Assembly: GCA_030280995.1 (NCBI GenBank)
Contig: JASXTE010000072.1
Location: forward strand, 62,001-126,000
DNA: 64,000 bases
Reading direction: 5' to 3'
Source of the DNA: Hemileia vastatrix
Lineage: Eukaryota > Basidiomycota > Pucciniomycetes > Pucciniales > Zaghouaniaceae
Shown: in pieces, positions 5,732 to 43,390 of the stretch
How positions within the stretch are numbered: position 1 is the first letter of the stretch
Layout of the letters: every line of letters starts with the position of its first letter
The notes under the pieces: model-generated
What the model saw: only the letters and a program-made list of their open reading frames with translations
What the model was told of the DNA's origin: nothing
Databases searched by the model: none
Program-made: the position numbers and the translations under genes

Positions 5732-5734
5732 ACT

Positions 5735-7182: not shown

Positions 7183-8670
7183 ATGATTCATTCCAAGTCA
7201 GCAAGAATACAGACAAAGATGTTGTCCTCTCGGTTAGAACCTTCGCCTTTTGCCAGTTCATCTTTCATCACTCACGGTTCGCAAGATTTTTACAAGTACA
7301 CAACAAGGAGAAGATGTCACAATGAATTTTACAATAATTTACTTAATTCAACAAATAAACAAGTTACATCAACGTATAAATTAGATTCAAGTAAATTGTT
7401 TAAAATGTTTTTCATCTTCATCTGTATCACTGGTAATATTTATCAAGTTGCTCAACTGAGTGATGAATATTTCCAATATGCAATCGTCAGTGTAATCAAA
7501 GATGAATACGACAACACAATTGGAGTGCCTAAAGTGACATATTTATTCAAAATGGTTGATGTAATCAATTGGACACATTTCTTTCGAATGACTGGTGATT
7601 CGATGGAAACTTGTCAAATACCAGGTTGGAACAATCAATCCATTCCAAAAGAGGAAGAAATGGTCAGTGTGACCAAAAAATGGAGAACAAGTACACAAGT
7701 GAAATATTTGTTTTGCATTTCAAATCTTCTCAAATTGAAAGATTGGAATGCAATGACACTCAAAGCAGATCAACTGTTTTCAGATGTATTTTCAGTGACA
7801 AATCATTATTCACTTCATCGATACAACTTTTCCGAGTACTTTGATGTGGAAGAGTTTTACAAAGTTCGCTTCAAAGGATTCACTTTGACAGCTAAAGAAA
7901 CTTTCAGAAGCAAATTCAATGGTTCAATTAATCAAATAAAACTTCAAATTGCTCAAGATGGACAACTGTTTCGTATTTTACTCAGACCAAGTGACAAATT
8001 GTCAAACTATCGTGTTTCACTGTCAACTTTACATGAACAAGTAACATTTCAAACTCGACGGGTGACACTTCGTTATTCCAATACTCGACACATCATTGCA
8101 TCAAATGAATATCGAACACGTCGATTACCTCCACCTTATTCATCAATGTGTCGTAATTATTCATCTCGACATAAAATTCATGAAGACTGTATGAAACAAC
8201 TTGGCATCACTTTGTACAAATCATTTATTCCTGGTCCATCAATTTATCCCAATGAATCAATTATCTTTGATGATACAAATGTTGTCGTTCAAACTCAAAA
8301 CATACCAATTATTACACAAATTCCTGATGCAAATAACACCTGGTATGAAAAGGTAAACAAAATAGTCAGTCATTGTGAAAATTTGATAAAGAATCAAGAA
8401 TGTGCCAGCAGCGATATGATTCCAATACTTTTATCAGCTCAATCGTATCCAATTGAATCATTAGTTTATGTTGGTGCATTTTATCCATCAAGTTCAGTAT
8501 CATTTATACCACAAATTGATTTAACAGCATACGTTACACAACTTGGTTCAACAACAGGTTTTTGGCTGGGAATAAGTTTTTTAAATGTTCTCATCTTCAT
8601 CAAAGGTTTTTTCGTCAAAACCAAACAACTCATCACCAAGAGATCACATTCATCCGGAAGTTGTAAGTAA
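7183..8670 (+). CDS. DEG/ENaC (pickpocket-like) channel subunit, single unit
   Basis: 495 residues, one exon. TM1 is at about residues 73-92 and TM2 at about 456-475. TM2 contains GFWLGIS, in which Gly-Ile-Ser (463-465) occupies the G-x-S selectivity-filter position of DEG/ENaC channels. The extracellular part has RRLPPPYSSMC at about 313-323, the same motif found in each unit of the big channel genes at 24.7 and 31.4 kb (LPxPYDTxC). The usual post-TM1 TIC motif is changed to VPKVTY, without the Cys. A paralog lies at 61025-62373. By family it is a trimeric, voltage-independent, amiloride-type Na+ channel in the plasma membrane. The start at 7183 gives a 70-residue Ser/Thr-rich cytoplasmic tail, and an internal Met is possible. 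Confidence 0.78.
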   Translation: MIHSKSARIQTKMLSSRLEPSPFASSSFITHGSQDFYKYTTRRRCHNEFYNNLLNSTNKQVTSTYKLDSSKLFKMFFIFICITGNIYQVAQLSDEYFQYAIVSVIKDEYDNTIGVPKVTYLFKMVDVINWTHFFRMTGDSMETCQIPGWNNQSIPKEEEMVSVTKKWRTSTQVKYLFCISNLLKLKDWNAMTLKADQLFSDVFSVTNHYSLHRYNFSEYFDVEEFYKVRFKGFTLTAKETFRSKFNGSINQIKLQIAQDGQLFRILLRPSDKLSNYRVSLSTLHEQVTFQTRRVTLRYSNTRHIIASNEYRTRRLPPPYSSMCRNYSSRHKIHEDCMKQLGITLYKSFIPGPSIYPNESIIFDDTNVVVQTQNIPIITQIPDANNTWYEKVNKIVSHCENLIKNQECASSDMIPILLSAQSYPIESLVYVGAFYPSSSVSFIPQIDLTAYVTQLGSTTGFWLGISFLNVLIFIKGFFVKTKQLITKRSHSSGSCK

Positions 8671-8947
8671 CAACAACAACAACAACCAATTCTTCTTTCA
8701 TCCATGTAACTTTTTTTTTATCCACTTTGACACCTTTCAAGGTTAACAAAAAAAGCAAAACAAATGTCAAGGATGAAAGACTTTTCTTGTGTAATCATTA
8801 CGTAGTCAAAGTGTTCTTGTATAACATGAATTGATTGTCAGCAGTCACTAATTAAAAGCACTAAATTATTATTTGCCTTTGTCTTTGAGTTGACTTCATT
8901 GACGAATTAGTGAGTCAAGTTGAGGACAAGTTGAAAAGTCATTTAAA

Positions 8948-22069: not shown

Positions 22070-22235
22070 CATCCTGAGTCCTTAATTAATGTATTTACAG
22101 TGTAACAGATCAACATGTGGACTTGTTCATTGATACCAAAGGCAGGAAATTGTCACTGTTGATGTCATTGGCTGACTGGTGATTTCATATGACGGCAAAA
22201 CATTTTCGTGCAAATAAAATTTATCAAGTGAATGT
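22070..22235 (+). repeat. Duplicated 5' flank of protease 1 (partner 23192-23357)
   Basis: The two flanks share an ordered series of blocks: CATCCTGA, AATGTATT, ACTTGTTCATTGATA, GGAAATTG, TTGATGTCATT and, nearest the gene, CAAATAAAATxTATCAAGTG. The tandem duplication therefore included the region upstream of the coding sequence. Confidence 0.8.
22211..22235 (+). promoter_or_regulatory. Conserved proximal block upstream of both proteases (candidate core promoter or 5' UTR)
   Basis: CAAATAAAATTTATCAAGTG and the following AATGT lie about 41-65 bp before the chosen ATG. The equivalent block is at 23333-23357 upstream of the second gene. It is the best conserved part of the duplicated flank. It may be TATA-like or transcribed leader; the sequence cannot decide. 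Confidence 0.35.
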
Positions 22236-22275
22236 GAATCTGAGCAAAATCAACACAATCAAAAGAATCGAAAGA

Positions 22276-23130
22276 ATGGTTATCTCTGTATTATGGTCAG
22301 CAGTTATATTTTCACTGGTTATTTTTTTAACTTGGGACAAAGTTAACTGTCGTGCAGCTGATCGAGTTATCGGTGGAAAAAATGCCACTGCGGGAAAATA
22401 TCCATTTTTCGCATTATTAACCATCGAATCTCATAATGGTACAGTTGACATTGTCAACACTTGTGGAGGATCTGTCATCAGTGAAATGTGGATACTAACT
22501 GCAGCTCATTGTCTGGTTAATACAACTGCTATCACCATCAAATTAGGTTCAGTTGTACTTTCCAGGATCAACGGAGTTGAATTCAAAAGTGTACTTCACA
22601 TCTCACATCCTGATTACAATGATTCTTCGCTTGATAATGATATTGCTTTGATAAAAGTAGACAGACCCATAGAATTGAGTGAAACAATTGATAAAATTGC
22701 TTTACCCAAACCGGGTGAAGAAAGATTACATAAAAGGGCTTATATTTTGGGTCATGGTGCGACAGATCCGAATGCAACTCAGGCATCTTTTTATTTACAA
22801 GTGGCTACAATCAAAGTATTTCATGATGAAACAAATTGTACTGATGAAGATGAATTAGATCCTCGACATTACTTTTGTGCAGGTTCCAAGGATGAAGAAA
22901 AAGATACCTGTCGAGGTGATTCAGGTGGTCCTTTGTTTGATAATAACATACTTGACAAACCTGTTCAAATTGGAGTTGTATCAAATGGACCCGCCATTTG
23001 TGCATCTGGAGTACTTGCTGCTTACACACGACTTTCTAATTACGTTGATTGGATAAACAAGACAATGACTGAAAACTCATCAACGAATCTTAACAACTCT
23101 GCCAGAGATAATTTTCATGACAGTTCTTGA
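22276..23130 (+). CDS. Secreted trypsin-like serine protease (S1A)
   Basis: 284 residues from the ATG at 22276, chosen because it starts a signal peptide (MVISVLWSAVIFSLVIFLTW) that aligns with the paralog's start. The frame is open 87 bp further up. Activation site is DR-VIGG at about residue 30. The catalytic triad is complete: His78 in TAAHC, Asp122 in DNDIAL and Ser216 in GDSGGPL. Asp at the S1 pocket position (DTCRGDSGG) predicts trypsin-like specificity for Arg/Lys. Position 192 is Arg rather than the common Gln. A short Ser/Asn-rich tail follows the protease domain. Likely digestive or haemolymph/salivary. It is the upstream member of a tandem pair. Confidence 0.93.
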   Translation: MVISVLWSAVIFSLVIFLTWDKVNCRAADRVIGGKNATAGKYPFFALLTIESHNGTVDIVNTCGGSVISEMWILTAAHCLVNTTAITIKLGSVVLSRINGVEFKSVLHISHPDYNDSSLDNDIALIKVDRPIELSETIDKIALPKPGEERLHKRAYILGHGATDPNATQASFYLQVATIKVFHDETNCTDEDELDPRHYFCAGSKDEEKDTCRGDSGGPLFDNNILDKPVQIGVVSNGPAICASGVLAAYTRLSNYVDWINKTMTENSSTNLNNSARDNFHDSS

Positions 23131-23191
23131 CACTCTCATCCAGTGATGGACCAATTGTCATGACTGATCATCTGATTTAAACCTAATTTGA

Positions 23192-23357
23192 CATCCTGAT
23201 TCCTCAATAAATGTATTCACATTGTTACAGTTTGACGTGAGAACTTGTTCATTGATATCAACAGAAGGAAATTGCTCCAATTGATGTCATTTGATCACTG
23301 TTGATATTATATGACGATTTAAATTTTTTACCCAAATAAAATGTATCAAGTGAATGT
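23192..23357 (+). repeat. Duplicated 5' flank of protease 2 (partner 22070-22235)
   Basis: Same series of shared blocks as described for the partner, including the proximal CAAATAAAATGTATCAAGTG block at 23333-23352. Confidence 0.8.
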
Positions 23358-23387
23358 TACTTTTAACGATATCATCAAGTGAAAAGA

Positions 23388-24191
23388 ATGATTACCGTTG
23401 TATCATGGTTGACCGTGATATGTTCACTGGTTATTCTGTTCGATGGTAAAAGTGTTAATTGTACTTTTCGAAAGAATCGAATTATCGGTGGAAGAGATGC
23501 ACCTTTTGGCAAATTTCCATTTTTCGCATCAATCAGCATAAGAGTTGATAATAATGATTCGATTATCAATCAGTGCGGAGGATCTGTCATCGGTGAAATG
23601 TGGATTCTTACCGCAGCTCATTGTTTGGAAAATATCTCTTCGGCTGAAGTTAAACTGGGTTCTAATTTACTCTCTGGTTATAATGGAATACAAATAGATA
23701 TATCTAAAAGCATCATGCATCCTGATTACAACAATGTTACAGTTGATAATGACATTGCTTTGTTCAAAACAACTCAACCCATACGCTTGAGTCATACAAT
23801 TAAAACGATTCAATTACCTCAACCAGGTGAAGAAAAACAACATAAAATGGCTTTTGTTTTGTGTCATGGTGTTACTAAGAGTAAATCGTCAGAACTTTCA
23901 TTTTATTTACAAGTAGTTAAAATCAAATTATACCATGATGATTCAAAATGTACAGAAGGAGAAAAACTGGATACTCAACATTACTTTTGTGCATGTTCTA
24001 AAGAAGATAGAAAAGATTCTTGTCAAGGTGATTCAGGTGATCCTTTGTTTGCTTACAACTTGTTTGGAAAAGCTGTTCAAATTGGAATTGTTTCAAGTGG
24101 ACCTGACACTTGTGGACAGGGAATTCTCGCTGCTTACACACGAATTTCCAATTACCTTGATTGGATAAAGAGGACAATGTCTGAAAATTAA
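23388..24191 (+). CDS. Trypsin-like serine protease paralog with altered active-site loop
   Basis: 267 residues from ATG 23388, with signal peptide MITVVSWLTVICSLVILF. Activation site NR-IIGG is near residue 31. The triad residues are present: His78 in TAAHC, Asp122 in DNDIAL and Ser216. However, the loop reads GDSGDPL instead of GDSGGPL (the G197 position is Asp). Two other glycines have become cysteine: VLCHG for VLGHG and FCACS for FCAGS. The S1 Asp is kept (DSCQGDSG). The fold and secretion signals are intact, so this is a transcribed-looking gene whose activity is in doubt: reduced-activity protease or a new function. It lies 257 bp after its paralog. Confidence 0.9.
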   Translation: MITVVSWLTVICSLVILFDGKSVNCTFRKNRIIGGRDAPFGKFPFFASISIRVDNNDSIINQCGGSVIGEMWILTAAHCLENISSAEVKLGSNLLSGYNGIQIDISKSIMHPDYNNVTVDNDIALFKTTQPIRLSHTIKTIQLPQPGEEKQHKMAFVLCHGVTKSKSSELSFYLQVVKIKLYHDDSKCTEGEKLDTQHYFCACSKEDRKDSCQGDSGDPLFAYNLFGKAVQIGIVSSGPDTCGQGILAAYTRISNYLDWIKRTMSEN

Positions 24192-24679: not shown

Positions 24680-27600
24680 TCATCGTGTCATCCTTGTCAT
24701 TCTAAGAAGTGTCTTTTCTATGTTTTCGATATCTTTTTCAGCTTGACGAATTGGATTGTATCGAATTATTTCATTTCCAACTGCAATGGACATGAGTTGA
24801 TAGACAGAGAAGCCGAACCAAATACCAATTATGTTGCCGATGTCGATTATCAGTTGTAGCAAGGAAAAAGCAATTGTGTAGAACACACTGACGATGGGAC
24901 TTCGAGTGGTGATGACTTCGAATTGTGTGCGAGTATTAGCTTGATGACTGGCATTCACATTATTGACTTGACTGATTGTAAATGCATTGGTCACAGTAAA
25001 TTCATAGTAAGAGTGTTTACTGGCAACAAACCAATGATTGCTCCACTCACATAATTTTCGACAAATAGGTTCATAAAGGTTGAGCGAAGCATGAACTTTA
25101 GCATCTTTGATGGAAAAGTATACATCATTTGACTTGACTTTTATCAGATGACCATATTTTTTGCCTTCTTGAGCCATTCTGTCACCGATACACTGACCCA
25201 TACAGGATAACTTGAGCATATGCGTGAATCCCATGTCAGAATAAGGAGGAGGTAATGATCGAACTTTCAAGAGCTTGTAGTCAATGACATGAGTTACACT
25301 GGTACGATGTCCATTCAAAAGTGGTGACCATACAATTGATGACGTGGGATACTTGTAGTCTTCATTAGGAGTGACTATTACTCGATAGTTTTGCGTGAGA
25401 AAGATGTTTTTCACTTCAATCATGAATAGTTTTTGGTGAGAGTTGAAAACATTCTTCATTTGACTTCGAGTTCTGGTGATTTTCTTCACTTGTTCAACTA
25501 TGTAGCAAACATAATCGTGTCTTACAAACTTGGTCACGGTAAACAGTCGCTTACAGATGGTCGGATTATTGCTCTGGAATAGAATTCTGTCGGTTACATT
25601 TTTCATGTTGTTGATCAATCTTTCATGCAGACCCCAATATGCACAACTGGCGATCAAATCATCTCCAGAAGGTGACAAATCGAAAATATCGGCAACTGTA
25701 TGATTTGTCCTGCTGTTGATAGATTCGATTTGAGTCCAGTCGAGACAAATCGTTAACAAGTAGTCATTCTTAACTTCAGGTGATACTCTAGACTGCAAGT
25801 GAGAAGGATACCGCAAGTATGTCCCTACCAACAAGTTCAAATGAATAAAATGTCCAATCAAACAGACCGAGAAGATAACAATTTTCAAGCAAAGTGTTCT
25901 CCTTTTCATATTTTTAACTGTGGATGTGACAAATTTCACTGGGTCCCACTGAATCATTTCTACTCTTTTAAATCTCATTTGCAAGATAAACCTGTCAATT
26001 TGTGCCATCATATGGTTGAGCATGGTGTCGACGCGATGCTTCTGAAACAAAGTCAAAGGGTTGAACATGAGGAAAGAGAATCCAGTCCAAAAACAAAGAG
26101 TTGAAAACAGTTGAAAAATCAATTGGCTTAAATTGTTAGCCGGTTTGAACTTAGTCAACGACATGGGTGACATTGGAGTGCCCACTGGAAGCTCAATATC
26201 ATATTTAGCATCTTGACGTCGTGAACCAAAGATCGTTTCAGTGTAGCTGAAATTGCATGCCATGTGACCACAGAGTTGGTCACATTTTGTTTCTACTTGA
26301 AGCCAAAGATTATTAATTGACTGATTTAACATATCAGAGTAAGTCATGATTTTGATAGGCAAATGATCTTTGGTCGCTACAGCGAAAGGTACAAGTCCAA
26401 GTGGATTGATTGCACTCAGGTAACAATCGTTTAAACATCTTCGACGATCAACTGATCGACATTGAGTATCATATGGAGCTGGTAAACTCAATTCACGTCG
26501 TTCAATATGACTGACAATTTGAAGCCTTTTTCTACCATCGTTAAAAGATGTAACCATGAAATCCATTGATGATTCAGGCCAAAATTCGGTGGAAAAGTGG
26601 ACAATGACGAAAAATGAAAATTTTGACAAATGAGAATCAAGAACAACTGAATAAAAAAAATCAATTTGATTCAATTGCTTCATCTTGTTCATATCGAAGT
26701 ACTTAATCGGTTTAACCGGAGACAAATTATAACAAATATGATGATTCAGATAGAATTTAGTGATATTGAATAACGTTCTACACTCTTCTTGTGAGTGTAT
26801 CTTCCAGGTTGACCATTGTTCTTGTGGAAATATGCATTTGTCAAGGATATCGCGATCTTTGATTCGATCGAATATTTCTCCCAGTGTTGAGTTGAATATT
26901 TCTTCACTCATTTTAACTCGCCTGTCAAAAGTGTCTTCTGAAATAGAAGGATGATTTATACGTTGGGTGTTTATCAAATTATTCAACCTAATGCAAATGG
27001 TAAGTTGTGGATGCCTCAATTCACCGCGATGGATCTGGCTTAATTTGCACTCAGTTCTGTATTCTAGGTACTTGATGGTAATTTCACTCATCTGATAGAA
27101 CATGCCGAAGAAAATTGTCAGCCTGACCAATTGATTACAGATGAAATATCGATTAATGCAACGATCAAGTTGACGATGTGAATGAGGCAAATCTAATCGA
27201 ATTAGCTGTTTCTTCCTGTGGATGATTCTAATCCAGTGACATTCGATTATTCTTAAAAACCGATGACGAAGGTTTCTTATGGTTTGAATTGACTTTTCAT
27301 GTACATTCAGATCACTCTTGGGGGTAAATAGAGATGAGAAAGAAAAACCGATCCAAATACTCGCTAATGAAAGACACACTATCAGGTAATCCATCAATGT
27401 CACCCGTGGAATCGATTGAACTTTAATCCCAGGTTCATTTGGACCTTTGACATTTATTATCAGTCCATCTGAAGTCGAAGTAAATTTTCGTGCCACTGTT
27501 CGAACTATTTGAGACAAACAAGAATCATACTTGCAAAGTTGAGAATACATCTTGGCATAGTCATTCTTTGTCATATTACTTTCCCAAGGCAAGTTACATG

Positions 27601-28381
27601 AGTCATCACAATCTGATTCTTTGACTTCATACGGCATTCGACCTCTTGAGATGACGAACTTATTGGCCATCTTCATCGAACAGACATATCTTGATACAGG
27701 TTGACATCGAGTATCATAAGGAGGTGGTAACTTTTCAATCTCAGCCATCAAATAGGAAAGATGGTAACTTTCCTTCCTCTCTTTTGAAGGATAAATATGA
27801 AAATTGTACTTGAAGTCCTGATAAATCGTGTCTTCGAGATGTATCAGTCCCATCATGGGTAAACCAGCAGCCAAAGAACGATTTAAAGATACACTAAACA
27901 GTTGAGAGTGTCCTCCAATCGATAACGGGTAGAAGCTTAACGATTCAGTGTAGTTGAGATCAAATCGATAACACAAATTTCCCCTGAAGTTGTAACGTTG
28001 GATGTGGAACATTTGAACACATTCATCACTTGTCGAGTTATTCATAGTCATCCCTTTGGTATCTTGATAAGAACACTTGACGATGATCTGGTTGGCCTTC
28101 GGTGCCAAGTCGAATATGTGGTTGGTATTGATTTGCTTGAAAAATATTCTTGATGCGGTTTTATTGAGTCTGTTGATATCAAATCCATGAGTTGACCGAA
28201 GAAGGGCGAAAATGCTGAAACATAGAGACAATTTGGGTATGGTCAATTTGATGGGAGTGAAGGGAGCGAAATTCGTATCGGTGGAAAACTTCAAGTATTC
28301 GTAGGTCTCTAAAGTGACGCAGACAATTAATAACACTAGACAATTTGCAAGGTAAATACACTTAAGCAATTTGAGATTCAT
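24680..28381 (-). CDS. Three-unit concatenated DEG/ENaC channel protein A
   Basis: One uninterrupted frame of 1233 residues holding three complete DEG/ENaC units head to tail. Unit 1: TM1 about 8-26, KLSLCF, LPPPYDTRC at 218, TM2 with IWIGFS (Gly345-Ser347). Unit 2: TM1 about 418-440, QLTIC near 460, LPAPYDTQC at 633, TM2 with FWTGFS (767-769). Unit 3: TM1 about 830-852, LLTIC near 876, LPPPYSDM at 1043, TM2 with IWFGFS (1190-1192). Each unit therefore has both membrane segments, the post-TM1 cysteine motif and the G-x-S selectivity filter. The units are joined by basic cytoplasmic-type linkers of about 55-65 residues. Family knowledge: DEG/ENaC channels are trimers of two-TM subunits, so one chain could form a whole channel. 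No intron is needed. Confidence 0.85.
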   Translation of the reverse strand: MNLKLLKCIYLANCLVLLIVCVTLETYEYLKFSTDTNFAPFTPIKLTIPKLSLCFSIFALLRSTHGFDINRLNKTASRIFFKQINTNHIFDLAPKANQIIVKCSYQDTKGMTMNNSTSDECVQMFHIQRYNFRGNLCYRFDLNYTESLSFYPLSIGGHSQLFSVSLNRSLAAGLPMMGLIHLEDTIYQDFKYNFHIYPSKERKESYHLSYLMAEIEKLPPPYDTRCQPVSRYVCSMKMANKFVISRGRMPYEVKESDCDDSCNLPWESNMTKNDYAKMYSQLCKYDSCLSQIVRTVARKFTSTSDGLIINVKGPNEPGIKVQSIPRVTLMDYLIVCLSLASIWIGFSFSSLFTPKSDLNVHEKSIQTIRNLRHRFLRIIECHWIRIIHRKKQLIRLDLPHSHRQLDRCINRYFICNQLVRLTIFFGMFYQMSEITIKYLEYRTECKLSQIHRGELRHPQLTICIRLNNLINTQRINHPSISEDTFDRRVKMSEEIFNSTLGEIFDRIKDRDILDKCIFPQEQWSTWKIHSQEECRTLFNITKFYLNHHICYNLSPVKPIKYFDMNKMKQLNQIDFFYSVVLDSHLSKFSFFVIVHFSTEFWPESSMDFMVTSFNDGRKRLQIVSHIERRELSLPAPYDTQCRSVDRRRCLNDCYLSAINPLGLVPFAVATKDHLPIKIMTYSDMLNQSINNLWLQVETKCDQLCGHMACNFSYTETIFGSRRQDAKYDIELPVGTPMSPMSLTKFKPANNLSQLIFQLFSTLCFWTGFSFLMFNPLTLFQKHRVDTMLNHMMAQIDRFILQMRFKRVEMIQWDPVKFVTSTVKNMKRRTLCLKIVIFSVCLIGHFIHLNLLVGTYLRYPSHLQSRVSPEVKNDYLLTICLDWTQIESINSRTNHTVADIFDLSPSGDDLIASCAYWGLHERLINNMKNVTDRILFQSNNPTICKRLFTVTKFVRHDYVCYIVEQVKKITRTRSQMKNVFNSHQKLFMIEVKNIFLTQNYRVIVTPNEDYKYPTSSIVWSPLLNGHRTSVTHVIDYKLLKVRSLPPPYSDMGFTHMLKLSCMGQCIGDRMAQEGKKYGHLIKVKSNDVYFSIKDAKVHASLNLYEPICRKLCEWSNHWFVASKHSYYEFTVTNAFTISQVNNVNASHQANTRTQFEVITTRSPIVSVFYTIAFSLLQLIIDIGNIIGIWFGFSVYQLMSIAVGNEIIRYNPIRQAEKDIENIEKTLLRMTRMTR

Positions 28382-28957: not shown

Positions 28958-29718
28958 ATGGATTCAACATTATTCGTAAAACAAGTTTATGCGATTTTAT
29001 GGAAGAACTTTACGATAAAACTTCGCCATCAAGCTTCAACTCGTTGTGAAATACTGGTTCCAATTTTCATTGCATTACTGATATCATGGTCATATTCTAA
29101 AATGAATCGATCTGAATTTCAGAATGAAGAAGATGCAGTAGATTTAGTAGATGTAAAAGATATTGAAGATGCACAATCAAGAAATTCACCTGAAATATTT
29201 TCGAGTATTGATTTTCAATCTAGCAAAGGTCCTGACCTGCTGGTGTTGATCCGATTGCTCGAAGAAAAATTTGGAATACTCTGTCTGTAATTCGTACAAC
29301 GTTTGACTGTACAATGATCCTTACTTCTCACGGTATGGCAGAAGTCGAAGCTCTTTGCAGCAGATTGGCCATCATGGTCAATGGTGAATTTGCGTGCATG
29401 GGCTCGATCCAACATCTCAAGACAAAGTACGGTACTGGCTATGCAGTTGCAATCAAGTTAAACAAGTCTAAATTTTCAGATATTTATTATACGGCTTGTT
29501 TGAACTCGAAAATTAGTGAAATTTTACCTGGTGCCCTAACAATCGACCAGCACGATTGCTCAATCACTTACCAGGTCGACAAGAATATTGGAAGCTGGTC
29601 TAAACTATTTCAATCGATGGAAAAAATTAAAACCACACTTGACCTCGAGGATTATTCTCTCAGTGATACTTCTTTGGAACAAGTTTTCATTCAACTTATT
29701 AATAAAAAAAATCGCTGA
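28958..29718 (+). pseudogene. ABCA transporter relic with large internal deletion
   Basis: The first part (28958 to about 29225) encodes an ABCA-type N-terminus: KQVYAILWKNFTIKLRHQAS and a first membrane segment, parallel to QFYGILWKNFKIQ in the full-length gene at 35.7-40.8 kb. From about 29240 the DNA jumps to the end of the second nucleotide-binding domain just after Walker B (GVDPIARRKIWNTL, then ILTSHGMAEVEALC), ending in DTSLEQVFIQLI. About 1,400 codons are missing between the two parts, and the parts are in different frames: the first frame stops at 29290. The second part alone is open from 29314 to 29718. It lacks both Walker A motifs and cannot be a transporter. Confidence 0.85.
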
Positions 29719-29899: not shown

Positions 29900-30745
29900 T
29901 AGCTACAAAGATCATCCGCTCCGATTGATTTGTTCTTGTATTTGCATGAAGAGAATGTTGAAGGTGATGTTGCAACCCATGAAGGCCAGTATGAGTGACT
30001 TGTCGATTGGCCAGATTGTCCAGACTGTTACTTTGTGCTTGAATGACTTTTCCAACTTGATCAGAGTGTACAAATCTTTGGTACAGAGTATTTTCGCTTT
30101 CATCCTGTTTGCAGTTTGTGAAACCAGATGATTAAACTTTTCTTGTAGGCAACAGATGAACAAGAGCGAAAGGAACAATGTTGTGAACATGCAAGTATAG
30201 TAAAGGGCTGAATTGAGGGAATACCTAAAAGGATGATTGTGGTCAGTCCTTTGCCACAGAGAAGATGTCAAGTAAGAAGAAACGACAAACAGAGTGTAAA
30301 AGAACCAATTCAAAGGTAACAGTGAAAATGTCCCCTCGAACTCATCAGTCACACTTGCAACCAGAGTCATCTTCTCCTCCAAGTCATTTGAATTCAATTC
30401 ATCGTGTTCTATGGACCCAAGAAGTTTCTTCTTGAAGCACATGAAGATGTAAAAGGAAAAAACATACAGACCACAAGATAATTGAAGGTAAGCTGAAAGA
30501 ACATCTTCACTGAGGAGACTCGTCAAGACGAGAATCCTCTTCACTCTGATGTCCATTTGTGATTGTGACAGGCCGAGTGTGTTCCAAATCCAAGAGTTCA
30601 TGTCCAATGAATGCACAACATTTGATATCAATTTGCTTGTCACCCGAAAAAGGTAATTCACAGTCAATACAATGCTCAACTTCACAGTCGATTTTGTTAT
30701 TGTGGCTCGATCATGTCCGCTGGATAATTCACCACTGATTGCACT
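29900..30745 (-). repeat. Arm 2 of the near-perfect inverted repeat (partner 1-846)
   Basis: Covers the 3' two thirds of the receptor gene at 29912-31084 plus 12 bp past its stop codon. See the partner entry for the base-to-base relation. Confidence 0.9.
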
Positions 30746-31084
30746 GTAGAACGATGGTATCTTGCCAGTCAATGTCATAATCAACAAAAATGAATATTCC
30801 ATGAGAGGAACGATTGGCAAGATAACATGAGCCAGGTTAAGTAATTGCTGTCCTGATTGAAATACTTTCATGTTGTCATTGAGAACAAGAAGCAGTCTGA
30901 TCATCGACAGGATGAAAGCGACGATCCACCATTTGTTGATTTTACCTTGGAAGGAGACACCAATCAGCCGATAGATTATTCCATACAAAGTACAAAAAAG
31001 TAAACAACTTTCTTTTTGGTCATCGCCAATTTGTTCATTTGATTCAATCGGTACAACCAAATCGATGTTGACATTTCGTTTCAT
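29912..31084 (-). CDS. Gustatory-receptor-like 7TM protein, complete
   Basis: 390 residues from ATG, single exon. The N-terminus is cytoplasmic-like and acidic (MKRNVNIDLVVPIESNE), followed by the family block IYRLIGVSFQGKINKWW, about seven hydrophobic segments, and the C-terminal VTVWTIWPIDKSLILAFMGCNITFN block with TFNILFMQIQ at the TYhhhhhQF position. It shares this plan with the receptors at 43-45 kb, 50-51 kb and 63 kb. The 3' part is duplicated in inverted orientation at the window start. It lies tail to tail with the ABCA relic (193 bp apart). Confidence 0.72.
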   Translation of the reverse strand: MKRNVNIDLVVPIESNEQIGDDQKESCLLFCTLYGIIYRLIGVSFQGKINKWWIVAFILSMIRLLLVLNDNMKVFQSGQQLLNLAHVILPIVPLMEYSFLLIMTLTGKIPSFYSAISGELSSGHDRATITKSTVKLSIVLTVNYLFRVTSKLISNVVHSLDMNSWIWNTLGLSQSQMDIRVKRILVLTSLLSEDVLSAYLQLSCGLYVFSFYIFMCFKKKLLGSIEHDELNSNDLEEKMTLVASVTDEFEGTFSLLPLNWFFYTLFVVSSYLTSSLWQRTDHNHPFRYSLNSALYYTCMFTTLFLSLLFICCLQEKFNHLVSQTANRMKAKILCTKDLYTLIKLEKSFKHKVTVWTIWPIDKSLILAFMGCNITFNILFMQIQEQINRSG

Positions 31085-31437: not shown

Positions 31438-34400
31438 TTACCGAGTTATTCGTGATCGCATGAGAGTTTTTTGGATGTTCTTAAGATCATTTTCAGCCCG
31501 AATGATGGGATCACTTGAAATTATTCCCTTTCCCACCCCGATGGACATGAGTTGATATATGGACAAACCAAACCATATTCCGATGATGTTACCTATTTCA
31601 ATCATCAATTCAAGTAAAGTGAAAGCCTCTTTGTAGTGAACAGACATTATTGGACTTTTGGTGGTGATTAAATGAAATTGTGTCATCAAACCACTAACTC
31701 GATCGTTGATTTGAATTATGCCGACTGGATAAGCATTGGTCACCGTGAAGTCATAATTTGTATATTCGTCAGAAACAAAAGAATGATTACTCCATCTGCA
31801 AATTTTTTGGCAAATGGCTGCAGAACTCTCAATAACACCTTTTATCCTGATATCTTCGATGGATAAATAGGGATCATTCGATGGTCCATCAATTAAATAA
31901 CCGTACCTTTCACCCTGTTTTTTCATAGATTCAGCAATACATTGATCGATGCATGACAATTTAATCATATGTGTGAATTCCATGTCAGAATAAGGAGGAG
32001 GCAATGATCGAACTTTGAAGACTTTGTAGTCGATTATGTTGATGATACTAAAATTACGACGAATTAAAAGTGGAGACCATATAATTGATGAGATGGGATA
32101 TTTGTATTTATCATTGGGTGTTACGATCACTCTGTACGATTTAGTGAGAAAAGTGTTGTTGACTCTAATCGAGAATAATGTCAGATGGTGGTTGAAGACG
32201 TTCTTCATTTGACTGGGTTTTCTTTTGATTCTCTTCACTTGTTCAACTATGTAGCAGACATAATCGTGTCTTACAAACTTAGTCACGGTAAACAGTCGCC
32301 CGCAGATGGCCGGATCGTTACTTCGGAACAGAATTCTGTCGGAGACATTTTTCATGTTGTTGATTAATCTTTCATGCAGACCCCAATATGCACAACTGGC
32401 GATCAAATCATCTCCAGAAGGTGACAAATCGAAAATATCGGCAACTGTATGATTTGTCCTGCTGTTGATAGATTCGATTTGAGTCCAGTCGAGACAAATC
32501 GTTAACAAGTAGTCATTCTTAACTTCAGGTGATGCTCTAGACTGCAATTGAGAAGGATACCTCATGAACTCTTGTATGGATAAGTTTAGATGAATGGAGT
32601 GTCCAATGAAACAGATGAACAAAGAAACCACCCTCCAAGTAAGAGTGCCTTTTTTCATATTCTCCACTTTTGATCGAAGAAAGTTCAAAGGATCCCAAAT
32701 GGTCACTTCTAATCGCCTAAAACCTAAGTCTCTCATCAACTGATTGATTTTCATCATCAAATGGTCAAGTGTAGAGCTGATGTGAAGCTTGTAAAACAAA
32801 ACACAAGGATTCAACATGATGAGGCAAAATCCAGTCCAAAAAGTCACCGTTGAGAAGAGTAGAAAAATTGTTTGACCCAAAGTGTTTGAAGGCTTGTATT
32901 TCATGAGCAAAGAAGAAGATGATGGAGTTCCCACTGCATACTCAAGATCATGCTCAGAATGTTCTTTCGGTAGACTCAACATCGTTTCAGTGAATTTGAA
33001 ATCGCATGGTTTGAAATTGCACACTTTATCGCACATTTTTTCTATCCTGAGCCAAACATCATTGATTGACTGGTTGACCAGATCTGAATACCTCATAATT
33101 TTGAGTGGCAAATTATCTTTGAGTGCGGCAGCAAATGGAATAACTCCAAGTCGATCGACTGCTTTAAGGTAACAATCATTCCAACATTCTGATTGACTGG
33201 CTGATCTACATTTGGTGTCATAAGGCGCGGGTAATCTTAGTTGTCGTCTTTCTATGTATGATGCGATTTGAGTTCTTTTACTCCCGTAATCGATTGAAAA
33301 TGCAGAATATTCCATCGATTCTACTGGCCAGAACCAAGTTGAAAAGTGAACCACAACTGTAAATGTTTTCTTCCGAAGTTTTGGATTTAGAATGACAGAA
33401 TAGAATTGACCTTTGGTATAAAATTTCATCTTCAACGTGTCCACCGGATTTGACTCGAATGGATTGAAATTATAGCAAATATTACGTTTTATGTAGAACA
33501 GAGTAATATTAAGTAATTTGGTGCATTGATCTCTTGAATGTTCTTCCATTTGGTTTATCGATGACCCACGAAATCTACAACGATGAAGAAACTCTCGATT
33601 TTCTACCAAGTCAAATATTTCTTTCAGGGTTAAATTGTAAATGCCTTCATCTTTTCTTAGCTGAGTGTCATAATCATCTTCCGGATAGAAGAACCATTTG
33701 TCAGGATTACAGTCCAACAAATCATCCAGATCAATGCATATCGTGAATTGTGGATATTGTAACATTTCACTGTTGTTGTAACTTAACTTACATTCAGTTG
33801 CGAATTTGAAGTATGAAATGCCAATTTCATTGATTTGGTAGACAAGGCCAATGAAGACCATAAATTTTATCGAGTGACGACGAACGAAGTTCGAATTGAT
33901 TGAATGTGATGATGGATGATGTTGAAAAGGCGGTTGATTTGTCAGCCTGAGGCGCATCAATAGTTTCTTCCTTTGTAGAATTTGAGGCCTGTTGCAATGC
34001 AAGACTCTTTGTAAGTGAGATCTGAGCATTTTTATCCTTTCAATCGATCGCTTACAAGGTTCAGTATTGACTTTTAGGACAAAAAGAGCTGAAAATGAAA
34101 AACCAAGCCATATACTCGCCAATGATAGACACATTGTTAGGTGATCCATCAATTCCATCTTTGGTATAGATTTGATTCTAATTCCGGGTTCATTCGGGCC
34201 TTTGACATTAATTTTAAACTCACTTGAAGTCAACGGAGATTTTTTGGCCACTGTGAGAACTGTCTTGATGATGCATGTATCGTATTTACATATTTTCTCT
34301 ACTTGAGATGTAAGTTTTTTCATCTCACGCTTTGGTATATTTACCTTTGGAGGTAAATAACAGGAGAAATCACAATCTGATTCTCTTATTTCAAATGGCA

Positions 34401-35127
34401 TTTGACCTTTTGAGACGAAGAAGGTATTTCCTAGTTTGATCTCACACAAACGTTTAGACAATGATTGACAATTGGTATCATATGGTTTTGGTAACTTTTC
34501 AATCTCGTAGAATGCATAATTCAATTCGTACGTGCGGATGAATGAAGGATAAAGATGAAAATTGTACCTCATTTCTTCAACAGGAATTTCTTCGTAATGA
34601 AGCAAAGCCATCATGGATAATCCAAGGACTAAAGATGAATTGAGGGTTACACTGAAAAGGAAAGAATTTTCCTTCATTGATATGGTCAGCAGGTAAAAGC
34701 TCAATGTTTCATTATGATGAATGTCGAAAAGGTAACAAAATTTAGGACCAAATATACTGCGAGTTATTTTAAACGTCTTCACACATTCATCATGGTTTAA
34801 ATGATGGATAATCATTTGTGAATCTCGAATAGAACATTTCTTCATTGCTTCTTTAATTTTAGGTGCCCAATCGAATAATTGATAAGCAGTTGATTGATTG
34901 ATGAAACTTTTCACATCTTGATTGGTTACTTGATGAAATGAACTGATCAACTCGTTCCTGTCAAAGCATAAAGATAACTTGGGTCTTTCGAGATCGATTG
35001 GAATGACAGGAGCAACATTGGAATCTGTTGTAAATTTCATGTACTCGTGTGTTTTCAGGCCAACGATGATGATGAAAAAGAGGAAACAAATTGAAGAGAA
35101 AATCCATTTGACGAATTTCAATTTCAT
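31438..35127 (-). CDS. Three-unit concatenated DEG/ENaC channel protein B
   Basis: A second uninterrupted three-unit frame, 1229 residues. Unit 1: TM1 about 8-24, KLSLCF, LPKPYDTNC near 212, TM2 IWLGFS (Gly342-Ser344). Unit 2: TM1 about 420-440, QFTIC near 460, LPAPYDTKC near 632, TM2 FWTGFC (766-768), with Cys in place of the filter Ser. Unit 3: TM1 about 830-850, LLTIC near 875, LPPPYSDM near 1043, TM2 IWFGLS (1187-1189). The unit order and linkers match protein A, so the tripling predates the duplication of the gene. Most of the protein differs clearly from A, but the first part of unit 3 is nearly identical (see findings). Likely a plasma-membrane Na+-permeable channel; gating is unknown. 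Confidence 0.85.
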   Translation of the reverse strand: MKLKFVKWIFSSICFLFFIIIVGLKTHEYMKFTTDSNVAPVIPIDLERPKLSLCFDRNELISSFHQVTNQDVKSFINQSTAYQLFDWAPKIKEAMKKCSIRDSQMIIHHLNHDECVKTFKITRSIFGPKFCYLFDIHHNETLSFYLLTISMKENSFLFSVTLNSSLVLGLSMMALLHYEEIPVEEMRYNFHLYPSFIRTYELNYAFYEIEKLPKPYDTNCQSLSKRLCEIKLGNTFFVSKGQMPFEIRESDCDFSCYLPPKVNIPKREMKKLTSQVEKICKYDTCIIKTVLTVAKKSPLTSSEFKINVKGPNEPGIRIKSIPKMELMDHLTMCLSLASIWLGFSFSALFVLKVNTEPCKRSIERIKMLRSHLQRVLHCNRPQILQRKKLLMRLRLTNQPPFQHHPSSHSINSNFVRRHSIKFMVFIGLVYQINEIGISYFKFATECKLSYNNSEMLQYPQFTICIDLDDLLDCNPDKWFFYPEDDYDTQLRKDEGIYNLTLKEIFDLVENREFLHRCRFRGSSINQMEEHSRDQCTKLLNITLFYIKRNICYNFNPFESNPVDTLKMKFYTKGQFYSVILNPKLRKKTFTVVVHFSTWFWPVESMEYSAFSIDYGSKRTQIASYIERRQLRLPAPYDTKCRSASQSECWNDCYLKAVDRLGVIPFAAALKDNLPLKIMRYSDLVNQSINDVWLRIEKMCDKVCNFKPCDFKFTETMLSLPKEHSEHDLEYAVGTPSSSSLLMKYKPSNTLGQTIFLLFSTVTFWTGFCLIMLNPCVLFYKLHISSTLDHLMMKINQLMRDLGFRRLEVTIWDPLNFLRSKVENMKKGTLTWRVVSLFICFIGHSIHLNLSIQEFMRYPSQLQSRASPEVKNDYLLTICLDWTQIESINSRTNHTVADIFDLSPSGDDLIASCAYWGLHERLINNMKNVSDRILFRSNDPAICGRLFTVTKFVRHDYVCYIVEQVKRIKRKPSQMKNVFNHHLTLFSIRVNNTFLTKSYRVIVTPNDKYKYPISSIIWSPLLIRRNFSIINIIDYKVFKVRSLPPPYSDMEFTHMIKLSCIDQCIAESMKKQGERYGYLIDGPSNDPYLSIEDIRIKGVIESSAAICQKICRWSNHSFVSDEYTNYDFTVTNAYPVGIIQINDRVSGLMTQFHLITTKSPIMSVHYKEAFTLLELMIEIGNIIGIWFGLSIYQLMSIGVGKGIISSDPIIRAENDLKNIQKTLMRSRITR

Positions 35128-35660: not shown

Positions 35661-38600
35661 TTATTGATTTCTGGCGAATTGAATGAATATCTGTTCCAAT
35701 GAGGTGTCACCCAGTGAATAATCTTCAAAGTCTGACCAGTACTTGAGATCCTCCATGATGGCAAAGATTTTTGACCAAGTACCGATACTTTTGGACAGTT
35801 GAAATGTGATTAAACAATCATGTTGATCAATCGCTTTAGCTCCTGGTAGAACTTCTTCAATGTCTGACTTCAATTGTTCCATGTAATCTTCATCTCCGGC
35901 ATGTTTAGCCTTTAATTTGACAACAAGTGTATAACCTTGACCGTACTTTGTCTTGAGATGTTGGATCGAGCCCATGCACGCAAATTCACCTTTGACCATG
36001 ATGGCCAATTTGCTGCAAAGAGCTTCGACTTCTGCCATACCGTGAGAAGTAAGGATCATTGTACAGTCAAATGTTGTACGAATGACACCCAGAGTGTTCC
36101 AAATTCTTCTTCGAGTAATCGGATCAACACCAGCAGTTGGTTCATCCAACAGAACAAGCTTTGGATTGCCAATCATGGCCAGGGCGATGCTGAGTTTTCT
36201 TTTGTTGCCTCCCGAGTAAGTGCCACAGGGTTTGTCAGCATGAGCTTGTAAATCAACCAGTGCTATCATCTCATTACTTAGAGCTAGAAGAGATCTTTCT
36301 CGAGCACCTCGAAGTCGTGCAAACAGAAACAACATTTCGCGGCCAGTCATGTTGTCGATGAGTGGATTGAACTGAGGACAATAACCGATATTCTCTTGAC
36401 ACAATCGAAGTTCTGTTTCCATATTAAGAGGTCCTTGATAAATTTCACCTTTAGTCGGAACAATGTCACCTGTTAACATACCAAAAGTTGTTGATTTACC
36501 AGCTCCATTAGCACCGATGAGTCCATAACATTCTTGTTTATCAACATGGAAAGATATTCTTCGAACTGCCCAAAATGATGAGTATTTCTTGCACAAATCC
36601 TTGACAGCCAATGCTTTGTCTTTATAATTGTTGTTAGCAATCATAGATGCAACTTGAAAAGCTTCTCGTTTAACGTCATCAGAGCCAGGGGTAATTAGCA
36701 TTTGATTTGGGGTTTCTACCATACGATTTTTCAATCTTATGAGATAAATACCACCAAACTCAATCAAGATTAAGAGAATCAAGTATATAGTGAATTGTAT
36801 AAAAAAAACGGTAATATCATTGCCAATCCGTAATCTACCGTAATCATCAAAACCTTTAGTAGAACACGACTGATTGAAGTTGTCACATATAATCGGACAA
36901 CAAATTCGGTATGGATTACCAGAATCACACTCACATTGTGTATCACATGAAAATCTCATTTTCGGGCAGAGGTCAAGGGCGCGGTTGTAGATCATAAAAT
37001 TGAGTAAACCCGATGATATAACAAATACCGGAGAAAAAGCACCGACCAAATAAGTCAATTTGACAATTCCTCTGGAAATGTCAACTGTCTTCGACAGATT
37101 CAATATGTCGATAGCTGTAAAAACAACTGTCATCAATAAACCAGTGGTTTGATCTATCGAAACCATGGTGCCAAAAGCTTTTGTTTCATCTGTAAACAAA
37201 AAACCCACTGAATAACTTAGAAGAATACTTGATGCACCAAACATGAAAAATAGAAAGAATAAACTGAATTGTGAGTCACTTGTGGTGAATATGCCATCAT
37301 GATCACGAATTTCAATGATCATCATGATTATGAGAGTAGATATTGTATTTACAAGCATGTCAAATGCAAATGAACCAGCATGTAAAATCATCGGATTGAG
37401 TCCGGTCATTAGTTGAATCAATCTGGCTTTTGATCTACGCTCACCAATAGGAAATACTATGTATGAAGCGGTTATGAAAGTAGCGGCTGTAGTATCGAAG
37501 AAGAAAAATAAAAATAATTTGGAAAGTTCTCTTTTTTCTTCAATTGAAAGACTATCATTGCCACTTTTATGATCCATGTAAACTTCATGTCCTTCAACAG
37601 TTATCCGTCCTTTGGAATCATCTCTCAGTCTCATAAGATGAGCATTATAAACCAAATTTATCATGATGAGTAATGAAGCATTCGCCTGTGGACTGAAGTA
37701 CAAGTCGAATACAATTCCTTGTGGTGTGCTGTTCAATTTGACACCAAATAAATTAGTTGTAATAGCAGCATATAAATTTGTTCGATTCGTCAAACGTAAA
37801 AAGTAATCATTCATATCATCATCTTTTTCCACTTTTTTAATTTCATATTTGAACTCGGCAGCTATTTTAGCCAAGTTCTTTTCGAATTCTTTAGATTTAT
37901 CTTGACCATCAGATTGTACATGGATGAATTTGGAATCGGGATACAGACTTAAATCGTATTTTATCCTCTGATCTAATCCTTCGGCAGTAGACAAGGAGAT
38001 TGAACTTTCCACACTGTAAAAACCAAACAAGAAGATGAAGGGAGGTAGTAAAATCAATGAGACATTTGTCTTCCAAGCTCTTTTAGCATGATGAAGACGC
38101 TTGAGAAAGAGAGCATAGAATTGTGTCAAGTACAATTTGAATCTAGTTACTCTGGTTCTATCAACTTGTAGATCAATCATTTGATATGAGTTTTGGGATT
38201 GATTAGGTGAAGTATTGGTGCCTTTGTCACTTTTGAGAGTACTTAGGAAAATTTCATCAATCTTGAGGAAAACCTCATCCATTGTGGATTTGGCAATGCT
38301 GAATGATTCAACGCCAAGTTGGTCTTTTCTGTATTCAAGATCTTGAAAGAAAAACTTCAAATTTGATACAGTTCGTTCGTTTTCTTTCAGTTCATATATG
38401 ACTTCACTTCCAATGTCAGATTTGGTAATAGCTGACGGTAGGTAATTATGAATGATGCCTAGAAATTCTTGTGGATTAAAACTTCGAGTTTTCGAAACAC
38501 TCAGAATGTATCCGGTACCAAGAGCTTTTTTCAGGAACAAAGATGAACCTGAACAAACAACATGTCCTTGACTCATGATGACGATTCGATCAGCAATTGC

Positions 38601-40787: not shown

Positions 40788-42127
40788 GATTCAATAATGA
40801 TTGACTTGTCTGCTGATATAGCAATAAGAGATTAATTGTAACTGATTAGTAGACGCAGCACTCATTCAATCATCAATAAAATTCTTCTGGTATCAGTAAT
40901 CAATTTACATCTGCCACCAAGTAGCGTTCAATTACCGACTGATGATAAGAATTTGCTAGTTCATTAAGAATACATTTTTTACAAACCTTTGATAATACTT
41001 TAATGCATCAAGTCAATCGATTTGACAAGATTGTGTTCAACATCTTCATCCTTACAGCAGCACATGGTGATGCATGGTATTTTACGAGAGAATTAAAAAA
41101 GAATAATCAAATCCATATTTAATGGTATAATTTAAATTAGCTAAGTTGATGCTTAACTTTGGTTACGATAGGGAGAGCTAAACTGAGATGGTTGATCATG
41201 ACTTTGATTCGGTTACATCCATGCTTAAGAGAAGACAGCCATTTTGAGGAAGTTCACTCATCCTCAATGAATCAACATTTCTGATTTTGCACTTTTCTTC
41301 GGCAGTTGACTTGAGCGTCAAGATATTCTCAATTGTAATCATGGTCAGTTTATTTGCCGATGATAGTTTTTCTCAACTGAAAAAATCATCTTTATTTCAA
41401 TGAATAAACTGATGGACACACATAATGATAACTCTGGAACCTCTTGACTAGATGAAAGAAACAGTTCTCGTTGATGTCTCAAGCCAAGCAACCAAGTCTC
41501 TGTTCTAGCATTCAAATTCTTAAAGCATTCTCAATCTATCCGAATGTAAACAGATTACAACCTTCACTTAATTGATCTATTTTCACCGATGACAATTTGA
41601 CGAGAACAATGTGATTGGCCAAATTAGTGAACTATTGTATTTACAGTGATGAAAATAAAATATACAATTGAATGTGTCAATCTATTTGATCGATCTGGTC
41701 AATTCTAATTCAATTCATGTAGATGTAAATGGATTTTTATTTGTCTATTTATTCATTTGCAGACAATTCGTGAACATTTGAATGGACAAATTCCTTTATT
41801 CATTCTGTTGCAACATTATCACACCTTGAGATGGAACAAACAAACACCTCTACTGTTTGTTTTGTTGATTGTTGTCATGGTTGCAATGGAGACAAACTTT
41901 TGGAAAAAAACAAACAACAACAATGACGTGAGAATGATCATTTGCAGGTTTTAAATTTAATTGAAACTATCAACTGATTACAGAATAGTGTGAAAAAAGG
42001 ATACATTGTTTCATGTGACAATCAAATGTGTGCTTGATGGATAGTCAAATTGTTTTCAAAACGAGAACAAAGACAAAAATGAACATTCAAATACACTCGA
42101 ACTACAATTAGTTGTATTTTTCAGATG
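40788..42127. other. Intergenic; first ~200 bp duplicated upstream of the second ABCA copy
   Basis: The sequence next to the ABCA start (AGCACTCATTCAATCATCAA, CTTCTGGTATCAGTAATCAA, CAAGTAGCGTTCAATTACCG) recurs at about 57150-57260, so the ABCA promoter region was copied too. Weaker similarity continues to about 41130 (TATGGTATTTTACGA-like block). The remainder holds nothing I can support. Confidence 0.65.
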
Positions 42128-43348
42128 TTATCGATGATTAAGATTCAACTGTTGTTGAATTTGCACGAAAAGAGTGTTGAAGGTGACATTGCAACCGACA
42201 AATGTCATGATGAGTGACTTGTCAATCGGCCAGATGTTCCAAACGGACACTTTACGTGTAAATGATGATTCCATCTTCATCAGAGTGAACAAATCCTTGT
42301 TGGATACAATTCGTGATTTCATCCGATCAATCGTCGATGAAACCGCCTGATCAAATTGTTCTTGTTGACGACATATGAATAAAAGTGTTACAAACAAACT
42401 GCCTAACATCGATACAAAGTAAATAAAGTCATAGATCAATGTGAAACCAGTATAAGTATATTTTGTCCAAATGTATTCTGATAACCATGAGACCACAACG
42501 AAAAGAGTGTAAAAAAACCAATTGAGAGGCAACGGAGAGAAAATTAGTTCGAATTCGTCGGTTACAGATTTAACCAGAGTTATTTTTTCTCCGAAAGCAT
42601 GAAAATTGAAGTTTTCATCTTCAATTGACTCGAGGAGATTTTTCTTGTGCATCATCAGAATGTAAAAGGAAAAAATGTACAGACCAGTCGACAACTGCAG
42701 ATAATTTGATAAGAGAGAGTCGAAAAAAATAAACATCGACATGATCAACCTTTTCAGTGTCAACTGCATGTTCAGGTCAAGGATAAATCGTGTATTTGTC
42801 CAAACCCAGCTGGTCGGATCAGATGAAAGAACAATCCATACAATCCATCGAGCGATGAGAACCAACAAATTTACCAAACAGACAAATACACTTGTCTTGA
42901 CAGTTGACCTGGTCAACAGTTCACAGTCTTGCCTTTGTGATACTCGATGAAGAATTTTATCGTGAAACGATGAAATCATCTTCCTCGTAGACATGACAAA
43001 AAGATACAAGTACTCGATCAAAGGAACAAACCAGTAGATAATGTTTGCAGCATTAGTCAATGGCTGTTGTGGTCTGAATTTTTCTTTGCTTCGTTCAAGA
43101 TTGTAGACCATTCGAATGATCAGCAGAACAAAAGTGATGGTCCACCATTTGTTGAGTCTTCCGTTCAGTGATACACCAATCATTCGATAGGTCAGATCGA
43201 AGAGTTGGCAGAAGAGTTGTCTTGTCTTTTTCTTTTCTTCTTCGTCATCCTCACCGTGGATGGAGGATGTACTTTCATCAGAACTTGGTGCGACGAAATC
43301 TTTCTTCACCTTTCTTTCTCTATTCGAATGAATCTCATTCACTGCCAT
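42128..43348 (-). CDS. Gustatory-receptor-like 7TM protein
   Basis: 406 residues from ATG 43348. The frame is open up to 43414 but only with a TTG and a translated CT/GA repeat, so the ATG is preferred; it aligns with the starts of the sister genes. It has an acidic, Ser-rich N-terminal tail, LTYRMIGVSLNGRLNKWW, about seven hydrophobic segments, NWFFYTLFVVVSWL, and the C-terminal VSVWNIWPIDKSLIMTFVGCN block with TFNTLFVQIQ. It is one of three consecutive minus-strand receptors between the two ABCA copies, and its start is 569 bp from the stop of the next one. Confidence 0.72.
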   Translation of the reverse strand: MAVNEIHSNRERKVKKDFVAPSSDESTSSIHGEDDEEEKKKTRQLFCQLFDLTYRMIGVSLNGRLNKWWTITFVLLIIRMVYNLERSKEKFRPQQPLTNAANIIYWFVPLIEYLYLFVMSTRKMISSFHDKILHRVSQRQDCELLTRSTVKTSVFVCLVNLLVLIARWIVWIVLSSDPTSWVWTNTRFILDLNMQLTLKRLIMSMFIFFDSLLSNYLQLSTGLYIFSFYILMMHKKNLLESIEDENFNFHAFGEKITLVKSVTDEFELIFSPLPLNWFFYTLFVVVSWLSEYIWTKYTYTGFTLIYDFIYFVSMLGSLFVTLLFICRQQEQFDQAVSSTIDRMKSRIVSNKDLFTLMKMESSFTRKVSVWNIWPIDKSLIMTFVGCNVTFNTLFVQIQQQLNLNHR

Positions 43349-43365
43349 TAATTCACATACAAGAG

Positions 43366-43390
43366 AACTCTCTCTCTCTCTCTCTTTCTC
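43366..43390 (+). repeat. (CT)n microsatellite in the receptor 5' leader
   Basis: About ten CT units directly upstream of the receptor start. On the coding strand this is a GA tract in the presumed 5' UTR. Confidence 0.9.

Follow-up and report, generated by a model that had tools for sequence, protein, structure and literature searches.

A stretch of 64,000 nucleotides from the Hemileia vastatrix assembly GCA_030280995.1 (contig JASXTE010000072.1, positions 62,001 to 126,000 of the forward strand), called the window below, holds an intronless gene, gene A, that encodes three homologous units of the DEG/ENaC type in one reading frame. We consider it very probable that gene A and the adjoining gene B each specify a natural single chain of three DEG/ENaC-type subunits forming one channel, that is, a pseudo-heterotrimer. 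It is probable, too, that both belong to a family of covalent DEG/ENaC pseudo-heterotrimers that is old and has expanded, with a subunit order set by the gene and three pore positions that have diverged. The features of gene A are as follows (TM, transmembrane segment).

24680..28381, minus strand: gene A, 1233 amino acids plus stop (24680-24682), ATG at 28381, three DEG/ENaC-like units
27326..28381, minus strand: gene A unit 1 (residues 1-352), with TM1, ectodomain, LPPPY 218-222 and TM2
27341..27349, minus strand: gene A unit 1 pore motif, G345-F-S
27137..27325, minus strand: gene A linker 1 (residues 353-415), 63 amino acids, net charge +9, predicted cytoplasmic
26057..27136, minus strand: gene A unit 2 (residues 416-775), with TM1, ectodomain, LPAPY 633-637 and TM2; structure model made of residues 386-815
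26075..26083, minus strand: gene A unit 2 pore motif, G767-F-S
25898..26056, minus strand: gene A linker 2 (residues 776-828), 53 amino acids, basic, predicted cytoplasmic
24782..25897, minus strand: gene A unit 3 (residues 829-1200), with TM1, ectodomain, LPPPY 1043-1047 and TM2
24806..24814, minus strand: gene A unit 3 pore motif, G1190-F-S

Could such a long frame have arisen by chance? At the local base composition the chance expectation for 1233 stop-free codons is about 1e-36. The remaining five frames over the gene contain 62-95 stops, and the plus strand across 24680-28381 has many stops in frame. A chance open reading frame (ORF) is thus negligible and was rejected. Hydropathy peaks mark a TM segment at either end of each unit, and the TIC-type motifs of units 1, 2 and 3 read SLC, TIC and TIC. 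The units are recognizably similar to each other, with BLAST E-values of 8e-18 (1 versus 2), 5e-8 (2 versus 3) and 3e-6 (1 versus 3) in a run with composition correction and low-complexity filter off. The net charge of linker 2, set as residues 777-829 for the charge count, is +7. An earlier note on this DNA had described the 1233-codon frame without stop or intron, three two-TM units each with TM1, a TIC-type motif, LPxPY and GFS in TM2, and short basic linkers between them. The frame is present at exactly those coordinates, hydropathy and motif positions agree on the three units, and the linkers are indeed short and basic. The note left the strand (minus) unstated, and it overlooked both the adjacent gene B and the genome-wide family.

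Gene B and two single-unit relatives lie in the same window.

31438..35127, minus strand: gene B, 1229 amino acids, adjoining paralogue with the three-unit architecture of gene A
33982..35127, minus strand: gene B unit 1 (residues 1-382)
32686..33981, minus strand: gene B unit 2 (residues 383-814)
31441..32685, minus strand: gene B unit 3 (residues 815-1229)
25182..25812, no strand assigned: tract inside gene A unit 3, 85% identical to gene B 31931-32561
7183..8670, plus strand: S1, free-standing single-unit relative, 495 amino acids
61087..62373, plus strand: S2, single-unit relative, 57% identical to S1, with a short N-terminal part

The proteins of genes A and B are 53% identical overall, and 46, 44 and 65% identical in units 1, 2 and 3. 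Within the tract at 25182-25812 the two genes are 81-100% identical in windows, compared with 49-78% in the rest of the pair. Since the tract is so much more alike than its surroundings, the sequence suggests gene conversion between the two genes inside unit 3. S2 has an open frame and no clear TM1; its start may be missing or broken.

How far does this architecture extend? A search of 5.8 billion predicted proteins with gene A returned three others of 1229-1301 amino acids, aligned over 96-99%, and a second search, with an alignment of those three and genes A and B, added proteins of 1257 and 1251 amino acids aligned over 97-98%. These five external three-unit proteins carry no Pfam label or name. 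A search of the genome from which the window comes (747.6 Mb in 791 contigs) yielded 46 matches, spread over 15 contigs. Because only 38 of 158 first-look candidates were scored, the family counts for this genome are lower bounds. The open frames at all 46 places include at least 24 single-frame three-unit ORFs, genes A and B among them, with 1143-1323 codons from stop to stop. In 13 of the 24, the match of every unit to its own profile spans the unit; the remaining 11 (on C152, C207, C322, C363, C483 and C553) have good matches for units 2 and 3. Outside the 24 stand C82:143854, which has a short third unit, C483:122435, which is cut off where the contig stops, together with broken or partial loci on C82, C152, C207, C231, C297, C499 (three), C553, C70, C703 and C791. 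The two-unit frames among the broken loci have the missing unit alongside, either fragmented or in a different frame. No frame with four units and no unit order other than 1-2-3 was found in the genome loci examined. Seventeen contigs related to the family (C82, C499, C791, C703, C231, C70, C397, C297, C322, C483, C207, C553, C152, C363, C4, C319 and C324) are 35-264 kb long, although the mean contig of the genome measures 945 kb; this may mean that a co-sequenced animal, in an assembly of something larger, is the source of the family. Three further genome contigs carry matches to the Pfam family ASC (PF00858).

Is the order of the units conserved by descent? In a tree of 23 units, taken from seven proteins together with S1 and S2, unit 1 formed a group with support 98/98, unit 2 with 88/89 and unit 3 with 100/99. 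A larger tree of 93 rows held the units of 29 three-unit proteins (24 from the genome and five external), four single-unit relatives and two ordinary subunits. It was rooted by midpoint, and long branches lead to the two ordinary subunits and to several other rows. Like-numbered units grouped together in 29 of 29 proteins, with support 87/88 for unit 1, which is below the strict mark of the tree program, 100/99 for unit 2 and 100/99 for unit 3. As like-numbered units form three separate groups, the simplest reading would be one old triplication that preceded the split into subfamilies and has been retained since. The external proteins nest in subfamilies of the genome: P0001 falls with A, B and C499, and the C297 pair is joined by P0012 and P0013. 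P0002 and P0003 are near C82_38253 and C82_136626, with support of 90/86 for unit 3 and 95/67 for unit 1, and no resolution for unit 2. Some of the external proteins could be further paralogues from the same species.

The linkers deserve separate attention. They are the least conserved parts of the chain, with identities of 33 and 36% between A and B. For the whole pair, the nonsynonymous rate (dN) is 0.35 and the synonymous rate (dS) 1.46, giving dN/dS of about 0.24. For linkers 1 and 2 the values are 0.67/1.94 and 0.49/1.38, with dS near saturation. dN/dS is below 1 in the units of the pair as well as in both linkers, so that the linkers, too, are constrained as protein. Three other paralogue pairs show overall dN/dS of 0.32, 0.24 and 0.22, with all units below 1; their linkers show 0.28-0.53 in four of six comparisons, the other two having a dS of zero. 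Across the 29 proteins the first linker is 54-79 and the second 43-70 amino acids long, and each has positive net charge in 29 of 29. The central claim of the earlier note was a single chain of three complete DEG/ENaC subunits encoded by one gene. It is supported by the sequence, by 28 further proteins with the same order, by the tree and by linker selection. That a whole channel is made as one molecule of fixed order, which the note had offered as a possibility, is inferred. The note, which took the source for a mite, had proposed to look in mite proteomes for other DEG/ENaC-type chains of more than 1100 amino acids; three-unit chains of such length were found both outside (the five of 1229-1301 amino acids) and within the genome (the 24 or more ORFs).

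What kind of protein are the units? Like known DEG/ENaC subunits (ASIC1, ENaC alpha/beta/gamma, FaNaC, pickpocket), they combine two TMs, a large cysteine-rich ectodomain, a TIC-type motif after TM1, LPxPY, and G-x-S in TM2; three chains there correspond to three units in one chain here. With a threshold of at least 1.0 for the 19-residue mean, a hydropathy peak is found at the six TM positions in 28, 29, 29, 29, 29 and 29 of the 29 proteins, and the one protein lacking it has under 19 residues in its row at the first position. Unit 1 retains the filter glycine in 19/29 proteins, unit 2 in 29/29 and unit 3 in 28/29. Unit profiles built from the 29 proteins align with each other at an hhalign probability of 100% over 354-358 columns. 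Against two ordinary subunits of the same genome they reach 96.5, 97.3 and 96.7% over 350, 159 and 356 columns, compared with at most 0.3% in the controls (12 unrelated comparisons and three reversed). In profile searches of the PDB, 9 of 9 and 16 of 16 matches up to E 10 were DEG/ENaC structures, 2 and 3 of them at E below 0.01; a single-sequence PDB search gave one chance match for gene A (E 2.1) and none for S1. The structure model of unit 2 has an ASIC-like fold and matches ASIC, ENaC and FaNaC structures, and one three-unit relative, L030, exceeds the Pfam cut-off for ASC. Judged from sequence and model together, the relationship of the units to DEG/ENaC is remote but consistent.

How would such a chain work? 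Gene A and gene B would each be transcribed into one mRNA and translated as one uncut polypeptide of three DEG/ENaC-type subunits. In known DEG/ENaC subunits both termini are intracellular. The basic linkers would thus run within the cytoplasm, joining the TM2 of each unit with the TM1 of the following one, and need not cross the membrane; their positive charge in all 29 proteins fits cytoplasmic loops. Structures of the DEG/ENaC superfamily are three-fold, and the three units per chain match a three-fold pore. The units of one chain would close into such a channel, with a pore that is lined by three TM2 segments and probably conducts cations. The product would be a concatemer of fixed composition and order, whose three positions could evolve separate roles. 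In such a molecule unit 1 would tolerate loss of the filter glycine, seen in 10 of 29 chains, while unit 2 never lost it in 29 proteins and unit 3 lost it once. The uneven retention of the glycine marks the positions as non-equivalent, which fits a fixed place for every unit.

Several results weigh against the proposal that gene A makes one channel from one chain, and they should be noticed. A full-length AlphaFold2 model of gene A (residues 4-1203, seven alignment rows) had a predicted local distance difference test score (pLDDT) of 45.4 and a predicted template modelling score of 0.28, and is uninformative on trimer closure. The unit 2 model is only fair, with pLDDT 57.9, TM-scores to ASIC of about 0.3 and VIA rmsd (root-mean-square deviation) of 7-16 A. 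Pfam searches of the whole genes A and B gave no match at E up to 1, and among 18 three-unit proteins scanned at full length only one exceeds the cut-off for ASC (L030, 26.0 bits). The His-Gly motif before TM1 is absent in A and B, the sole His-Gly in A being at residue 65 and none occurring in B. The first unit of the 11 ORFs mentioned above matches the unit-1 profile weakly and piecemeal, and a few small pieces match best with the profile of another unit. A search with the unit profiles in the 5.8 billion proteins found only two single-unit relatives (P0014 and P0015), neither of which carries a Pfam label or a name. Several members of the family are broken copies, and in two the break falls at or close to a border between units. 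The tree nonetheless places the first units of the 11 ORFs with unit 1. Against the ASC cut-off of 23.6 bits, unit 3 of gene A scores 17.8 and unit 3 of gene B 15.1; as single units, L030 unit 1 reaches 27.8 and L020 unit 2 reaches 21.4. The ASC model also matches in one of 14 control genomes (Thermotoga maritima). The cut-off is a sensitivity threshold and not a defining trait. As the His-Gly motif is missing, the family is placed in the wider DEG/ENaC superfamily, not as ASIC or ENaC.

The two copies broken near a unit border are G000:C791:258785-262506, where the frame changes between unit 1 and units 2-3, and C70:10673-14400, where it changes between units 1-2 and unit 3; both are otherwise mostly open. 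They may be sequencing errors, young pseudogenes or truly split chains. A six-base homopolymer lies at the frame overlap in three of four broken loci examined, so that decay and sequencing error look the same in these loci.

Is there any other explanation for three units in one frame? The whole chain might be one building block of a channel assembled from several molecules, with chains swapping units in a daisy chain or associating with single-unit proteins such as S1. Single-unit relatives do exist in the window and elsewhere, and laboratory concatemers are known to suffer from unit exchange between chains. However, the presence of three units in all 29 whole proteins and of no four-unit frame in the loci examined fits the three-fold need of the family, and the linkers look, by length only, long enough to reach the neighbour within one trimer; we regard this possibility as unlikely. 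Alternatively, the gene might encode a polyprotein whose units are translated together and then separated by proteolysis in the linkers or by ribosome skipping, with the separate subunits assembling afterwards. Weak conservation and many basic residues in the linkers would suit such processing, but purifying selection acts on them, and their predicted cytoplasmic position would put them beyond furin-type enzymes. The skipping version was rejected, because the 2A-like motif NPG is absent from all 29 proteins, and a polyprotein of either sort is very unlikely.

Broken copies in the family and recent duplications in the surroundings might also raise the suspicion that the array consists of pseudogenes, or of frames fused in assembly, without function. 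Yet the frames of A and B, whose proteins are 53% identical, each stay open for over 1220 codons and show dN/dS of about 0.24, there are 29 whole proteins, and three other pairs show dN/dS of 0.22-0.32. Both fusion and pseudogene origin were rejected and are extremely improbable. A last alternative is that the units are two-TM repeats remotely like DEG/ENaC in a receptor, an adhesion protein or some other protein that is no channel. The lack of Pfam matches for A and B and their remote similarity to known members leave room for it, but the TIC-type cysteine, LPxPY and W-x-G-x-S follow in the right order, and the PDB profiles, the fold and hhalign all indicate DEG/ENaC, with no competing family in these results. 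We therefore hold it to be highly improbable.

The window holds further features beside genes A and B. An inverted repeat of 846 bases, 99.9% identical, lies at 1-846, where the window border cuts its left copy, and at 29900-30745. Both copies carry the same seven-TM-like ORF, and on sequence grounds the repeat is a very recent duplication or conversion. A direct repeat of 522 bases, 99.0% identical, stands at 45600-46121 and 49879-50400, on either side of the AT-richest part of the window. Single-exon hydrophobic ORFs of about 400 amino acids form a family at 8924-10174, 29912-31084, 42128-43423, 43918-45135, 50377-51657 and 63041-64000. We take these seven-TM ORFs to resemble gustatory-receptor-type proteins; the three scanned had no Pfam match over the cut-off. 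Likewise, the 484-amino-acid ORF at 58446-59900 presumably resembles an ionotropic-receptor-type protein, as judged by eye, and had no Pfam match at E up to 0.01. ABCA-type transporter genes occur at 35661-40790, 52049-57075 and 28958-29718, respectively as a 1709-codon ORF recognized by Pfam, as one in several frames and as a short remnant. The remnant sits between gene A and a seven-TM ORF, and a piece of it is 95% identical to the long ABCA ORF. Single-exon genes for a serpin, an AIG1-like GTPase and two trypsin-like serine proteases are found at 1484-2719, 3548-5734 and 22183-24191. The second trypsin-like ORF was assigned by eye only; with GDSGDP where the first has GDSGGP, it may be inactive. 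No tRNA or Rfam match was found within the window.

What might the one-chain channels be used for? For insects and mites, a chemoreceptor function of ENaC members has been either shown or suggested (PMC7738191). From this, from the many copies and from the seven-TM proteins nearby, our guess is a role in sensation, perhaps as a chemosensory channel family. The mite and insect ENaC and pickpocket genes of that paper share with the present family a DEG/ENaC relationship and a suggested chemical sense; no multi-unit ENaC gene is described in the part of the paper available to us. The earlier note knew of no natural case, and this stands within the open-access literature searched: among the matches listed there is no natural multi-unit DEG/ENaC gene, a scope that leaves subscription papers and database annotations outside.

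In textbooks, DEG/ENaC channels are assemblies of separate subunits, and the roles of single subunits are studied with artificial concatemers. Laboratory concatemers of ASIC are functional (PMC5449180), and one of two wild-type subunits and one G10'C subunit, cited there, is reported to have reduced Na+ conductance. The ASIC1 concatemers of PMC5449180 likewise hold three subunits in one reading frame and in fixed order. They are engineered from identical or point-mutated subunits, whereas the family of gene A is natural and old and has three diverged units. The chains with a non-glycine residue at the unit 1 filter (10 of 29) resemble the engineered concatemer with one G10'C subunit.

A natural family of fixed order makes the specialisation of the three positions in a trimeric pore testable, and it offers ready-made one-molecule channels for structural and single-channel work. 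A parallel is found in the four-repeat voltage-gated Na+ and Ca2+ channels, where internal duplication placed all positions of the ring in one chain and left the repeats free to diverge. In both cases the number of repeats equals the symmetry of the pore, the three-fold symmetry here being taken from known superfamily structures; those channels are four-fold with six-TM repeats, while the present ones would be three-fold with two-TM units of the DEG/ENaC type. If the proposal is true, the family would parallel, at three-fold symmetry, the step that led from tetrameric K+-type channels to four-repeat Na+ and Ca2+ channels.

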